Shown one piece after another: positions 14,080 to 19,221 of a stretch of DNA of 37,330 nt. The translations under genes and the position numbers were made by a program. The DNA comes from Vreelandella aquamarina. Lineage in GTDB: Bacteria; Pseudomonadota; Gammaproteobacteria; Pseudomonadales; Halomonadaceae. How positions within the stretch are numbered: position 1 is the stretch's first letter; the number at the start of each line of letters is the position of its first letter. The notes beneath the pieces are model-generated. The model saw nothing but the letters and a program-made list of their open reading frames with translations. It had not been told where the DNA came from and did no database searches. The stretch spans positions 1 through 37,330 of the forward strand of contig NZ_FODB01000040.1 of NCBI RefSeq assembly GCF_900110265.1, read 5' to 3'.

Positions 14080-14103
14080 GGGTATCCGGATTAAGTGGTA
14101 GAT
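14080..14103 (+). repeat. Left terminal inverted repeat (IRL)
   Basis: Begins GGGTATCCGGATTAAGTGGT. It pairs with the right end at 19198-19221, differing at four positions, and lies 24 bases from the 3' end of the transposase gene. Confidence 0.92.
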
Positions 14104-14127
14104 GGAGCCCCTTGCTCCTTCGAACCC

Positions 14128-15429
14128 TTAACTCTTCCAGAAGGTTGATAGATCGACGCCGTAGTTTTTCTCAGGCTCGGGAAGACCCATGCTGTAGGTC
14201 ATGGTGGCCTTGCCCAGGAAGGGGGATTCCTTGGTCTGCGGCACCTTCTTCTTGTGCTTGGTGGTGTAGAGCATCCGGGCCCGCATCACCTCGAATGAGT
14301 AGCCACGGCCATCGCGGTTCTTATCCTTGGCCAGCCGGTTGATTGACTCCGTGAAGGCGTTGGTGATCGGGATGTCGGTCTCGAAGTAGGTCAGCATCTC
14401 CTCATGCCAGCCACTGATAGCACTGACGAGATCTTTCCAGACCTCCTTTTGCCCCTGTGGGATGTCGTCAATCCAGGCAGTCAGCGCCTTCTCGGCGTCA
14501 CGCCGGGTTGTGGCGTCCCAGATGTGGAAGAACCGCTCCTTGTGCTCGTAGGCCGCCAAGAGCTGGGGGAATGCCCCTGTCCAGGTCTCCATGATGAGCC
14601 GTTCGCGATCTGAGACATCGTGAGCGCGCTTCAGCAGGATCTTCCGGTCACCCTTGAGGGTCCGCCGCTGGTTTGGCTTCAGATCCTTCCTGAGTCCCTT
14701 ACGCACCTTCTCCAGGGCTTCGTTGGCCATCCCCACCACATGGAACTTATCGACCACAATGCGAGCCTGCGGCAGTACCGCCTGGACAGCACGGCGGTAG
14801 GGTTTCCACATATCCATGCTGACGATCTCGACCTGGTGGCGCTCGGTCATGCTCATGAGGCGCCTCGTCACCGCGTCCTGCTGGCGACCGGGCAGCAGGT
14901 CCAGTAGGGTACGCTCCTCCAGGTTGGTCAGGATGCAGCGGTAGCGGCGGTTCAGGTACAGCTCGTCGATCCCCAGGCAGCGGGGTGTCTCGAAACGATG
15001 CCAGGCTGCCAGGAACTCAGCCTTCTTCTTGAATATCTCGCGGACAGTCTTCTCGTCGAGGCCCGTGGTATCAGCCACGTAGGCGTAGGGGTGATTGAAG
15101 GCTTCCTTCTCGACGTGGTTGTAAAGCCTCCGCGTCATGCGGTGATCGTCTACCATTTCCGGAAGAGCTGGCCGGAACGTCCTTCCACACGCCCGGCAGG
15201 TGTAGCGGCGACGGACCACCCAGAGGGTGACCCGCTTTCCGTGGATGGGTAGGTCGCGATAGGCCACATCGCGCTTGCCGAACCTGACAAACTCACTCTC
15301 AACGCCGCATTCCTCGCAAGCTAGAGGCTCAGGAGCTTCGACCTGGTAGTGGAGATCATGCTCTTCCATCTTGGTGCCTAGGACGTGGTACTCGGGAAGG
15401 TGAAGGATGTTGTCAGGCAAGCTAGTCAT
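14128..15429 (-). CDS. tnpA: ISL3-family transposase
   Basis: DDE transposase that moves the surrounding element. The ATG at 15429 is chosen for its AAGGA site eight bases upstream; it gives 433 residues (a longer frame reaches 15492). The N-terminus has a zinc-ribbon (CEECG near 38, CRACG near 78), followed by a DNA-binding helical region. The catalytic acids are Asp155 in LGIDELYL, Asp206 in VSMDMWKPY and Glu361 in TNAFTESINR. No frameshift or stop is seen, so it is probably active. It lies 78 bases downstream of merR in the same direction. Confidence 0.93.
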   Translation of the reverse strand: MTSLPDNILHLPEYHVLGTKMEEHDLHYQVEAPEPLACEECGVESEFVRFGKRDVAYRDLPIHGKRVTLWVVRRRYTCRACGRTFRPALPEMVDDHRMTRRLYNHVEKEAFNHPYAYVADTTGLDEKTVREIFKKKAEFLAAWHRFETPRCLGIDELYLNRRYRCILTNLEERTLLDLLPGRQQDAVTRRLMSMTERHQVEIVSMDMWKPYRRAVQAVLPQARIVVDKFHVVGMANEALEKVRKGLRKDLKPNQRRTLKGDRKILLKRAHDVSDRERLIMETWTGAFPQLLAAYEHKERFFHIWDATTRRDAEKALTAWIDDIPQGQKEVWKDLVSAISGWHEEMLTYFETDIPITNAFTESINRLAKDKNRDGRGYSFEVMRARMLYTTKHKKKVPQTKESPFLGKATMTYSMGLPEPEKNYGVDLSTFWKS

Positions 15430-15507
15430 GCAAACTTTCCTTGTCGACATGGTCCATAGATGATCGCGACTCTTTGACCGCGTTGTTTTCAACGAACTGA
15501 AGGTGAG

Positions 15508-15954
15508 TTACTCCCTTGGGTCTTCTGCTTCTCTGAGCCCTTCATGCAATGACGCAATTAGCGGGCAAGTGATATTGCCTTGTTGTGCATGGCATCTGTC
15601 GACCATTTCGCTCAGCACCTTCTCAATTCTTTCAAGCCTGTCGATCTTCTCGCGAACGTCCCCTAACTTGTGCTCTGCGAGAGCACTGGCTTCTTGACAG
15701 TGGGCGCCATCTTCCAGCCGAAGTAGGTCACTGATCTCATCCAGACTAAAGCCCAGCTGCTGCGCCGTTTTCACGAACGTCAACCTGTCGATATCGGCGG
15801 CACTATAGCGTCGAATACCTCCGGGAGGGCGTTCGGGCTCCGATAATAGCCCTCGTCGCTGGTAATAGCGGATTGTCTCGACATTGACGCCGGCCGCCTT
15901 GGCCAGGCCGCCAATGGTCATGGTGTCCGCCACTTTATCTGCATGTCTCTTCAT
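15508..15954 (-). CDS. merR: Mercury-responsive regulator MerR
   Basis: Hg(II)-sensing dimeric regulator that represses and, with mercury, activates the divergent mer promoter by untwisting its 19-bp spacer. The 148 residues have an N-terminal MerR helix-turn-helix ([20 protein letters not shown]) and a coiled-coil dimerisation helix. All three mercury-binding cysteines are present: Cys86 (AHCQEA), Cys121 (DRCHAQQ) and Cys130 (ITCPLIASL). It is divergent from merT with the operator between them and is read toward tnpA. Confidence 0.95.
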
Positions 15955-15959
15955 GATGC

Positions 15960-15990
15960 TTGACTCCGTACCAAGCTACGGAAGTAACCT
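15960..15990 (+). promoter_or_regulatory. mer promoter/operator (MerR-type, 19-bp spacer)
   Basis: TTGACT (15960-15965), exactly 19 bases, then TAACCT (15985-15990). The spacer contains the dyad CCGTA-N6-TACGG, which closely matches the Tn501/Tn21 mer operator. The long spacer is the hallmark of MerR-activated promoters. Confidence 0.92.
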
Positions 15991-16027
15991 TATCGTAGCT
16001 CCCCCCATCCCGAAAGGAGAATCGTCA

Positions 16028-17267: not shown

Positions 17268-18909
17268 ACTCAACGTGAGCGGCATGACCTGTGACCGCTG
17301 TGCGGATCATGTCAGGGAAGCCTTGGAGAAGCTGCCCGGCGTGCAGTCGGTGGAGGTATCCTATCCTCAGAGGACGGCATCGGTAGCCGTTGATCCGGGG
17401 ACACCGGCCTCGGCGTTGACGTTTGCCGTGACCCGACTTGGCTACCAAGCTCGACTGGCCAACAGTGGGCCCACTTCCCCGGCAGGCGCATCGGTGTCCA
17501 AGGGCCGTGATGAAGACGCCCCGCACATCGCGGTGATCGGCAGCGGCGGCGCCGCCATGGCGGCGGCCCTGAAGGCCGCCGAGCGCGGCGCCCGGATCAC
17601 CCTGATCGAACGCGGCACCGTCGGCGGTACCTGTGTCAATACAGGCTGTGTGCCTTCGAAGATCATGATTCGCGCGGCCCATATTGCCCACTTGCGTACG
17701 GAAAGTCCCTTCGATGCAGGCCTGAGCGCCCAGGCGCCGGTGGTGGATCGGGCCAAGCTGCTCGAGCAGCAGCAGCGACGTGTCGAGGAACTGCGTGACG
17801 CCAAGTACGAGGGGATTCTGCGCGACCACCCGGCCATCACTGTCCTGCACGGCGAGGCCCGGTTTATCGATGCCCATAGCCTGATGGTCAAGCTGAACGA
17901 GGGCGGCGAGCAGGTCGTCCACTTCGACCGCGCCTTCATCGGTACTGGCGCCCGACCGGCAGTACCGCCGATCCCGGGTCTTGCCGACACCCCCTACCTG
18001 ACCTCTACCAGTGCTCTGGCCCTGGACACTCTTCCCGAGCGGCTGATTGTGATCGGCGCCTCGGTGGTGGCCCTGGAACTGGCCCAGGCCTTCGCCAGGC
18101 TGGGCAGCCGGGTCACGGTGCTGGCCCGCAGCCGCCTGCTCTCCCAGGAAGACCCGGCGGTAGGGGATGCGGTGGAGGCGGCGTTTCGCCGCGAGGGCAT
18201 CGAGGTCCTCAAGCAGACCCAGGCGAGCCGTGTGGACTACACCGACAATGAATTCATTGTCGACACCAACGCCGGCACCTTGCGGGCGGATCAACTGCTG
18301 GTGGCCACCGGACGGACACCCAATACCGAGGCCCTGAACCTGGCGAGCCTCGGCGTGGAAACCGCACATGGGGCTATTCTGGTCGATGAGCATCTGCACA
18401 CCACGGTGCCGGAGCTCTATGCCGCCGGTGACTGCACCGATCAGCCGGAGTTCGTCTATGTCGCCGCCGCCGGGGGCAGCCGGGCTGCCGTCAACATGAC
18501 CGGGGGCGAAGCCACCCTGGACCTGAGCGCCATGCCGGCGGTGATCTTCACCGACCCCCAGGTGGCCACCGTCGGCCTGACGGAAGCCGAGGCCATCGAG
18601 CAAGGCTTCAGCGTCGATACCCGTGAGCTGGACCTGGAAAACGTGCCGCGTGCGCTGGTGAATTTCGACACCGGTGGTTTCATCAAGCTGGTGGCCGAAC
18701 GCGACTCGGGCCGGTTGCTGGGGGTGCAGGCGGTGGCGGGGGAAGCCGGTGAGCTGATCCAGACGGCGGTGATGGCGCTACGCGCACGCATGACCGTACA
18801 CGACATCGCCAATGAGCTGTTTCCCTACCTGACCATGGTGGAAGGGCTCAAGCTCTGTGCCCAGACTTTCACCAAGGATGTGACGCAGTTGTCCTGCTGT
18901 GCCGGGTGA
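17260..18909 (+). CDS. merA: Mercuric reductase MerA with one HMA domain
   Basis: FAD- and NADPH-dependent cytoplasmic reduction of Hg(II) to volatile Hg(0). From the ATG at 17260 it has 549 residues. The N-terminal HMA domain carries [11 protein letters not shown] (Cys11, Cys14), the FAD-binding [12 protein letters not shown] begins near 89, and the redox disulfide is Cys125/Cys130 in [13 protein letters not shown]. An NAD(P)-binding [15 protein letters not shown] and [13 protein letters not shown] follow. The C-terminal Cys-Cys pair (SCCAG) that receives mercury is present. The start overlaps the MerF-like gene. No merB, merC, merD or merE is present, so resistance is to inorganic mercury only. 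Confidence 0.97.
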
Positions 18910-18990
18910 ACGATATGAGCGCGACCGTGGTGCCACTGGGCGGCGGCACCACGGGTTTTGGGCATGGACACCACAGGGAGCCCTGTCACG

Positions 18991-19125
18991 ATGAACACGA
19001 CACTACCAGATTGCGGGATGATGGGGGCGATGGGCTGGATAATGCCAGTGATCGGAATTGCCCTACTATTGCTACTGGTCCTGGGCATCGCCTGTTTGGT
19101 GAAGTATCTGCTCTCTAGCAAGTGA
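18991..19125 (+). CDS. 44-residue membrane peptide at the end of the mer operon
   Basis: A small open frame, ATG 18991 to TGA 19123-19125, gives 44 residues. The N-terminus contains one Cys and several methionines (LPDCGMMGAMGWIM); the rest is one strong transmembrane helix (PVIGIALLLLLVLGIACLVK) with a second Cys and ends in YLLSSK. A GGGAG sits 5' of the start with a slightly long spacing. Met-rich short membrane peptides of this style occur in metal-resistance operons, but I do not recognise a named family. It lies 81 bases after merA and before the right end of the element, so it may be part of the mer transcript. A 70-residue frame overlapping it has no such features. Confidence 0.6.
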   Translation: MNTTLPDCGMMGAMGWIMPVIGIALLLLLVLGIACLVKYLLSSK

Positions 19126-19144
19126 GCGTACTCAGCGAGCCATC

Positions 19145-19158
19145 AACCAGCTAATCCG
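19145..19158 (-). repeat. Subterminal copy of the inverted-repeat core
   Basis: AACCAGCTAATCCG matches the inner part of the right end (AACCAGATAATCCG, 19201-19214) at 13 of 14 positions and lies 56 bp inside it in the same orientation. It may be a second transposase-binding site. Confidence 0.6.
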
Positions 19159-19197
19159 TTGTGGGTTGAGTTTGTCGGCCACCTTTCGCTCTCGCAT

Positions 19198-19221
19198 ACC
19201 AACCAGATAATCCGGATACCC
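19198..19221 (-). repeat. Right terminal inverted repeat (IRR)
   Basis: Read on the minus strand it begins GGGTATCCGGATTATCTGGT, matching the left end at 20 of 24 positions. It abuts the right copy of ATTATTAT. Confidence 0.92.

Follow-up and report, generated by a model that had tools for sequence, protein, structure and literature searches.

Insertion sequences (ISs) that carry passenger genes between their ends are defined as transporter ISs (tISs; PMC9330008). Two described elements of the ISL3 family are closest to the one reported here, which occupies positions 14080-19221 of a 37,330-nucleotide stretch of Vreelandella aquamarina DNA (the whole of contig positions 1 to 37,330 of NZ_FODB01000040.1, hereafter the window). 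ISPpu12 (3372 bp; pWW0, NC_003350) has a transposase 76% identical to that of the window element, the same kind of ends, an inner copy of the right-end repeat at -80, tnpA as the distal leftward gene behind the cargo, and a MerR-type regulator inside the element (PMC4133298). It differs in its cargo, which consists of lspA, a cation transporter gene and cadR/tnpR without mer genes, and in its regulator, which lies at the far end and not beside tnpA. ISPst2/ISPs1 (2985 bp) has the inverted repeat GGGTATCCGGAATTTCTGGTTGAT and 8-bp duplications (Table 3 in PMC6305408), but its cargo is a permease and an ArsR-type regulator (PMC6305408) and its inner repeat lies at -78. We found a 2985-bp element of that size (L197) with a transposase 75% identical to the window's, as well as many 3372-bp copies of ISPpu12 with exact 8-bp duplications; the pWW0 copy itself has none.

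Mercury transposons of the Tn3 family, such as Tn21 and Tn501, have a Tn3 transposase, a resolvase with its res site, ends of about 38 bp and a 5-bp duplication. Tn5053 and Tn5058, which have tni modules, also make 5-bp repeats, and Tn5058 has 25-bp ends (PMC3960245). Both groups share the function of the mercury-resistance (mer) operon with the window element and differ from it in these transposition modules. In Pseudomonas putida W619, mer genes lie beside, and not inside, ISPpu12 (PMC3056050), and within the partial coverage of our full-text literature search we found no description of an ISL3-mer transposon. The window element is, with a probability of about 0.95, a complete ISL3-family unit transposon, a tIS whose passenger is a whole narrow-spectrum mer operon. 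The preliminary description of this DNA had proposed as much, and we find the boundaries exact to the base and all eight reading frames open.

Boundaries, transposase and insertion site

The unit is 5142 bp long. Its left boundary, at 14080, reads GGATTATTAT followed by GGGTATCCGGATTA (in a longer reading, GGATTATTAT followed by GGGTATCCGGATTAAGTGGTAGAT), and its right boundary, at 19221, reads TAATCCGGATACCC followed by ATTATTATC (longer, ACCAACCAGATAATCCGGATACCC followed by ATTATTATC). The left and right terminal inverted repeats (IRL and IRR), counted from the printed ends, match at 20 of 24 positions; the 24-bp inverted ends reported earlier therefore stand, although calling them near-identical was slightly generous. 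A repeat search returned them as the top inverted pair (29 nt at 86%, duplication included). They start GGGTAT.CGGATT, as in ISPpu12, with ISPst2 much alike, and are of the ISL3 type. A perfect 8-bp duplication, ATTATTAT, flanks the unit on both sides, as had been described.

The transposase matches the NCBIfam ISL3 model NF033550 at 301 bits (cut-off 180) over model positions 3-369 of 370, and Pfam DDE_Tnp_ISL3 (PF01610) at 219 bits. The zinc-ribbon model PF14690 is matched as well, and the helix-turn-helix model PF13542 scores 21.9, under its cut-off of 27.4. Residues D155, D227 and E361 are invariant in a set of 11 ISL3 transposases whose identity falls as low as 41%. These three, the presumed catalytic triad, were picked by their motif out of 12 invariant acidic residues. 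The profile matches and the invariant acidic residues place the protein among the ISL3 transposases, and its open frame bears out the claim of an intact DDE enzyme.

The insertion lies about 16 bp past a terminator-like hairpin of the cold-shock gene (csp) and breaks no gene, in keeping with the earlier account; the hairpin was read by eye and is not listed by the promoter/terminator scan. The closest relative, L109, has the unoccupied site GTGGATTATTATCTGAC, with one ATTATTAT in the same context, so that the empty site sought at the outset exists. Among 29 loci of other genomes around the neighbouring SLC13-type gene, csp lies alongside in 25, with a gap of 192-350 bp, which means that there is no insertion at these loci. 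Because the same boundaries recur in independent insertions (below) and the unoccupied site of L109 has a single ATTATTAT, they are not due to chance. A tandem GCCCCAC-type repeat at 19232-19283 directly adjoins the right duplication; the empty site of relatives has CCTCACA/CCTCACG repeats in the equivalent position, so this repeat belongs to the host locus and not to the transposon.

Copies, spread and composite forms

We compared 23 copies of the unit. Besides the window's own, 14 came from the genome_contigs set, five from plasmids (two of these in a single strain) and three from relatives; they are the 27 rows of the duplication table minus four elements with other cargo (L025, L026, L030 and L036). 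Perfect 8-bp duplications, as in the ISL3 family, bound 15 of the 23, at 13 distinct sites, with L022, L090 and L091 counted once because they share one site with flanks that are 100% identical. The unit has inserted repeatedly and independently, into target sites that are AT-rich, mostly at positions 3-7. Pairwise identity is 97.7-100% among 22 copies (the deletion derivative L009 excluded), and in 17 of the 23 all eight open reading frames (ORFs) are full-length and without stops. Transposase and cargo also travel together. Among the best 80 of 405 confirmed transposase matches in genome_contigs (78 loci), the mer block is present in all 14 loci with a transposase at least 97% identical, and on plasmids a merA at least 99% identical lies inside this unit in 5/5 records, one of them the deletion derivative. 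Both findings that could have undone the preliminary description, namely ends that miss the block boundaries and a mer operon not conserved with the transposase, are thus contradicted.

Mercury operons are best known on Tn3- and Tn5053-type elements (Tn5053/Tn5058 in PMC3960245), and in an ISPpu12-like element described below (L045/L148) the mer segment includes a remnant of a Tn3 transposase. The operon might thus have been moved by such a transposon with an ISL3 element landing beside it, the ends then belonging to the IS alone or to chance. However, the family scans of the unit's proteins show no Tn3 or tni gene or domain, the ends are 24 bp and the duplication 8 bp, and the duplications bound the whole 5.1 kb at 13 sites and not the IS alone, which refutes this origin; together with the 14/14 association it leaves the idea next to no credence. 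A composite of two IS copies is likewise ruled out for the window unit, which has one transposase and occurs in full once in its own assembly.

Several observations weigh against the unit being a regular transposon in every copy. Eight of the 23 copies lack an 8-bp duplication, those of L008, L009, L015, L016 and L017 without an explanation; L016, with merA broken near its end, comes from a Dehalococcoidia metagenome-assembled genome (MAG) in which mis-binning is possible; and the three copies L022, L090 and L091 amount to a single site. The flanks of these three are identical over 1.5 kb per side although G016 and G026 are genomes of different species, which suggests that a larger island carrying the unit probably moved. 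The duplication of L163 is the same as theirs over the 8 bp compared.

The missing duplications of L005 and L014, and through its identical flanks that of L006, are explained by a larger composite. THAF12, MAG T82-2 (L014), G430 and G576 have a longer element whose right half is the mer unit; this longer element takes its left end from a sister ISL3 element and its right end from the mer unit. This composite measures 15,362 bp in THAF12, where it also holds two IS256 copies (outer duplication ATTATTTT), and 12,612 bp in L014 (GGAAATCC, the same in G576); the outer duplication in G430 is ATTTTTTT, giving three distinct ones. It adds lspA, lnt, a cation transporter gene, cadR, ccdA and peroxiredoxin genes, and is thereby a multi-metal composite in which the unit can travel as well as by itself. 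Deletion derivatives occur too: L009 (PA16-9) and G651 have a common deletion with the same endpoints that joins the first merF to merA, and the L009 transposase is also incomplete. The fusion (L009 5612-7021) is annotated in PA16-9 as one 469-aa mercury reductase; its G651 counterpart lies on C23. Damaged copies of this kind, the interrupted copy of G576 and the broken merA of L016 would fit a decayed or immobile remnant fixed in the chromosome, but the copy in the window has intact genes and a perfect duplication, and a relative shows the clean empty site; we regard a remnant as very improbable.

The search for the 5.1-kb block elsewhere, proposed beforehand, was productive. Among the 275 genomes of the family to which the window belongs, 13 (its own included) have the unit in full length, and these fall in 5 of 24 genera; G576, G590, G589 and G651 hold partial or interrupted copies, some perhaps cut by contig ends. 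Nine more full-length family loci (L155-L163) were checked, and the five with a duplication all lie at sites already counted. G617, of the window's genus, has its copy at the same coordinates as the plasmid copy of Halomonas sp. HAL1. In G027, G016 and G026 the SLC13-type gene has 79, 78 and 84% identity with that of the window and the unit has 98%, a disparity that points to recent horizontal spread of the unit. Near-identical copies occur in other gammaproteobacteria (Salinisphaera, Guyparkeria and Alloalcanivorax, among the matches listed), and a 98% copy without a duplication lies on a plasmid of the alphaproteobacterium Paracoccus albus. In a class-wide draw of 369 genomes, six, including the window's own, have a transposase match at E<=1e-100, the others all at 77% identity or less. 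Three phage records have a match, and 84 of 5,426 Escherichia coli genomes have a piece; coverage stays under 80% in every case.

Diverse cargo, the right end and the position of tnpA

Elements with transposases 74-93% identical to that of the window have common ends and other cargo. L025 (7416 bp) and L186 (9871 bp; duplication TTTCTGGG) carry ars genes; L028 carries YgjV/DHDPS/LysE/B3-4 genes with an XRE-cupin regulator, L029 MFS/CMD/aldo-keto reductase genes with a LysR regulator, L032 an MFS gene, L033 (tnpA broken) an SBF permease with an ArsR-like regulator, L034 AzlC/AzlD with LysR, L038 ChrA with PadR, L049 lspA/DsbD/czcD/MerR-type genes and L195 an operon with a LysR-like gene (assigned by eye and not by profile scan). 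The cargo of L030 (6698-7822), shared by L036, is an odd PheRS-like protein (tRNA-synt_2d plus FDX-ACB) seen in Acidithiobacillus and Pseudomonas. Exact duplications bound L028, L029, L030, L032, L036, L038, L045, L049, L186 and L195. No right end was found in 26 loci of a first survey of relatives, several of them from short stretches (those of L027 and L092 were later resolved, as L186 and L149), nor in L037/L188/L189, L181-L183 and L194 of a second. L181 (G591:C44) and L183 (G461:C71) have a broken ISL3 transposase at 89% identity about 11.6 kb from a merA at 91%. The window's own genome also contains an ISPpu12-like copy at 76% (L002, L152; G000:C67:80540-81875), with tnpA and lspA near a contig end.

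A second ISL3-mer element is among these relatives. L045, ISPpu12-like and 8224 bp long with the duplication CTAATATT, has a mer block inside, as does L148, whose right end lies beyond the stretch examined. Like the window unit, they have ISL3 ends around a mer operon and merR beside and co-directional with tnpA. They differ in their transposase (76% identical) and MerA (67%), in a MerD-like regulator, in retaining lspA/czcD/cadR and in the start of merE, which is fused to the Tn3 transposase remnant. Since this element was assembled separately, mer probably entered ISL3 elements at least twice. With this second case, and with cargo-bearing ISL3 elements frequent among the loci fetched, a full mer cargo in an ISL3 element is less unusual than first thought, and passenger genes in the family were, as had been said, already known from ISPpu12. 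L031 is identical to ISPpu12 over positions 1-200 and tracks the mer unit over most of its remaining length, although the stretch at about 600-800 is mixed; this hybrid indicates that ISL3 elements recombine. L031 (1-2325) is a short contig of the actinobacterium Scrofimicrobium canadense, in which contamination is possible.

The right ends of these elements have two repeats. Across 14 elements, the outer copy of a 17-bp repeat core lies at -24; the inner copy occupies -80 in 12 of them, -81 in L033 and -78 in ISPst2. The inner copy, 56 bp inside the outer one, is conserved while the flanking DNA diverges: over 12 elements with a spacing of 56, mean pairwise identity is 0.83 for the inner and 0.85 for the outer repeat, compared to 0.30-0.41 between them and 0.25-0.26 outside. 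This profile was made without L033 and ISPst2 (other spacing), L045/L049 (near-copies of ISPpu12 in this region) and L036 (the cargo of L030); L025 and L186, both ars, were kept. The left end of the mer unit has one repeat copy; in the left ends of ISPpu12 and ISPst2 the repeat is matched weakly and in part at 71 (11-12 of 18). We read the right end as a putative two-site end for the transposase.

The second shared trait is the place of tnpA. The cargo gene adjoining it is co-directional in all 13 arrangements counted: merR in the window and merR in L045, lspA, the ISPst2 permease, three different MFS genes (ars elements, L029, L032), YgjV, the PheRS-like gene, SBF, AzlD, ChrA and the L195 gene. 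The count excludes L037/L188/L189, which have no right end, and the decayed L194, and merges elements with the same neighbour; in L037/L188/L189 about 640 bp separate tnpA from the next co-directional ORF, and its start is overlapped by an opposite-strand ORF of 94 aa. For independent arrangements the coin-flip odds of 13/13 would be 2^-13, but related elements are not wholly independent. The DNA of the mer unit ceases to resemble that of other elements at or near the start of tnpA (start at q1350; last aligned base at q1260-1387), so that the upstream region, any promoter included, comes with the cargo. From this layout, tnpA would generally be the last gene of the cargo transcript, following merR in the mer unit, and the co-directional neighbour suggests that it may be controlled by the cargo's sensor.

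Put together, these traits lead us to a tentative proposal, to which we give somewhat less than an even chance. The elements would form a modular ISL3 group in which the only constants are a left inverted repeat-tnpA module and an asymmetric right end with two putative transposase-binding repeats 56 bp apart, while complete detoxification operons with their controlling sensors (Hg, As, Cr, Zn/Cd, amino-acid and drug-type efflux) pass from one element to another. As the last gene under the cargo's sensor, which in the mer unit would be MerR, tnpA may tie transposition to the stress that makes the cargo useful. Some results speak against this pattern or fall outside it: L193, a decayed 76% element bounded by a perfect duplication, lacks the inner repeat (the best match near -80 is 6 of 17), L025/L185, L026/L187 (damaged left end), L034, L192, L196 and L198 lack an exact duplication (3-8 mismatches), and in L033, L149 and L184 the duplication has one mismatch.

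We put at even odds a plainer account, in which the place of tnpA behind merR has no regulatory meaning, a weak promoter of its own lies in the 3' end of merR or in the gap, and co-direction is a by-product of cargo capture. The merR gene of Tn21/Tn501 is autorepressed and only weakly affected by Hg, so that any coupling may be slight, and the spacing between cargo and tnpA reaches about 175 bp in L028, 310 bp in the ars elements and 355 bp in L149. Co-direction in 13/13 arrangements speaks for sensor control instead. So does a scan that lists no consensus promoter or terminator on the minus strand of the merR-tnpA gap, a weak test in that its yield is near shuffle expectation, it misses the csp hairpin and it is blind to a 19-bp spacer. 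TnpR of an ISPpu12 isoform, moreover, is said to regulate transposition, going by the title of a 2010 report by Christie-Oleza.

The passenger operon, its predicted movement and what it means

Between the ends lie seven non-transposase genes or ORFs, which makes the unit a tIS: merR runs leftward ahead of tnpA, and merT, merP, two merF copies, merA and a 44-aa ORF run rightward (Table 1). MerR, MerT, MerP, both MerF and MerA each score above their NCBIfam cut-offs, and Pfam agrees, upholding the description of an operon without frameshifts. With a regulator, Hg transporters and a reductase, and no MerB among the seven passenger proteins scanned, it is a narrow-spectrum operon. MerA ends in a C-terminal CC. 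MerR has three cysteines 35 and 9 residues apart, as in MerR of Tn501, and the mer promoter over its dyad follows the plan of MerR promoters and of the Tn21/Tn501 operator.

Table 1. Features of the unit and its duplicated target, in window positions
Feature	Position	Strand	Evidence
Target-site duplication, left copy ATTATTAT	14072..14079	.	Sequence; single copy in the L109 empty site
IRL	14080..14103	+	Conserved in copies and related elements
tnpA, ISL3-family DDE transposase, 433 aa	14128..15429	-	NCBIfam and Pfam matches; D155, D227, E361 invariant
merR-tnpA gap, 78 bp, with ribosome-binding-like AAGGAAAG ahead of the tnpA ATG	15430..15507	-	Sequence
merR, Hg(II)-responsive regulator, 148 aa, upstream of and co-directional with tnpA	15508..15954	-	TIGR02051 173 bits (cut-off 151)
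mer promoter/operator TTGACT-N19-TAACCT, dyad TCCGTACCAAGCTACGGA at 15965-15982	15960..15990	+	Sequence
merT, 116 aa	16028..16378	+	NF010314 202 bits (cut-off 150)
merP, 98 aa	16392..16688	+	TIGR02052 127 bits (cut-off 93)
merF copy 1, 85 aa	16691..16948	+	NF033565 103 bits (cut-off 50)
merF copy 2, GTG start, 81 aa	17022..17267	+	NF033565 58 bits (cut-off 50)
merA, mercuric reductase with N-terminal metal-binding domain, 549 aa	17260..18909	+	NF010311 898 bits; TIGR02053 597 bits
44-aa membrane-like ORF	18991..19125	+	Hypothetical protein in the HAL1 annotation; no family match
Second, subterminal right inverted repeat (ATCAACCAGCTAATCCG), 80 bp in from the right end	19142..19158	+	Right-end comparison
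IRR	19198..19221	+	Sequence, repeat search, copy comparison
Target-site duplication, right copy ATTATTAT	19222..19229	.	Sequence, copy comparison

The second MerF lacks the C-terminal cysteine pair, and in L022, L023, L090 and L091 the first aligns over just 63 of 85 residues. Mer operons also occur outside the unit, in G036 and G029 (merA 83-84%), with no ISL3 ends found near them; closer mer operons have merA at up to 94% (G590) and mer at up to 90% (G477). The window's own genome holds a merA remnant apart from the transposon (L153; G000:C32:17391-17646; 46 aa at 80%).

As we picture it, TnpA would recognise the 24-bp ends, with the -80 repeat of the right end as a probable second binding site, and would excise or copy the unit of 5.1 kb. 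The analogy with ISPst9 makes a circular intermediate likely: circular forms are known in the ISL3 family and, for ISPst9, experimentally confirmed (PMC3812183). The unit would then insert into AT-rich 8-bp targets, which become duplicated. The cargo is predicted to detoxify Hg(II), with MerR sensing it at the divergent operator, MerP/MerT/MerF importing it and MerA reducing it.

The unit and its relatives are known in kind, as ISL3 tISs; the more novel part is the two-repeat right end together with the architecture of tnpA behind the cargo. With this element, the vehicles of mercury resistance extend beyond the Tn3 and Tn5053 families. The wider comparison unites scattered passenger-bearing ISs in a set whose architecture can be tested, with tnpA as a fixed module, two repeats at the right end and swappable cargo. 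If tnpA is indeed co-transcribed with cargo and sensors, these elements would offer a simple system for asking whether metal stress controls transposition.

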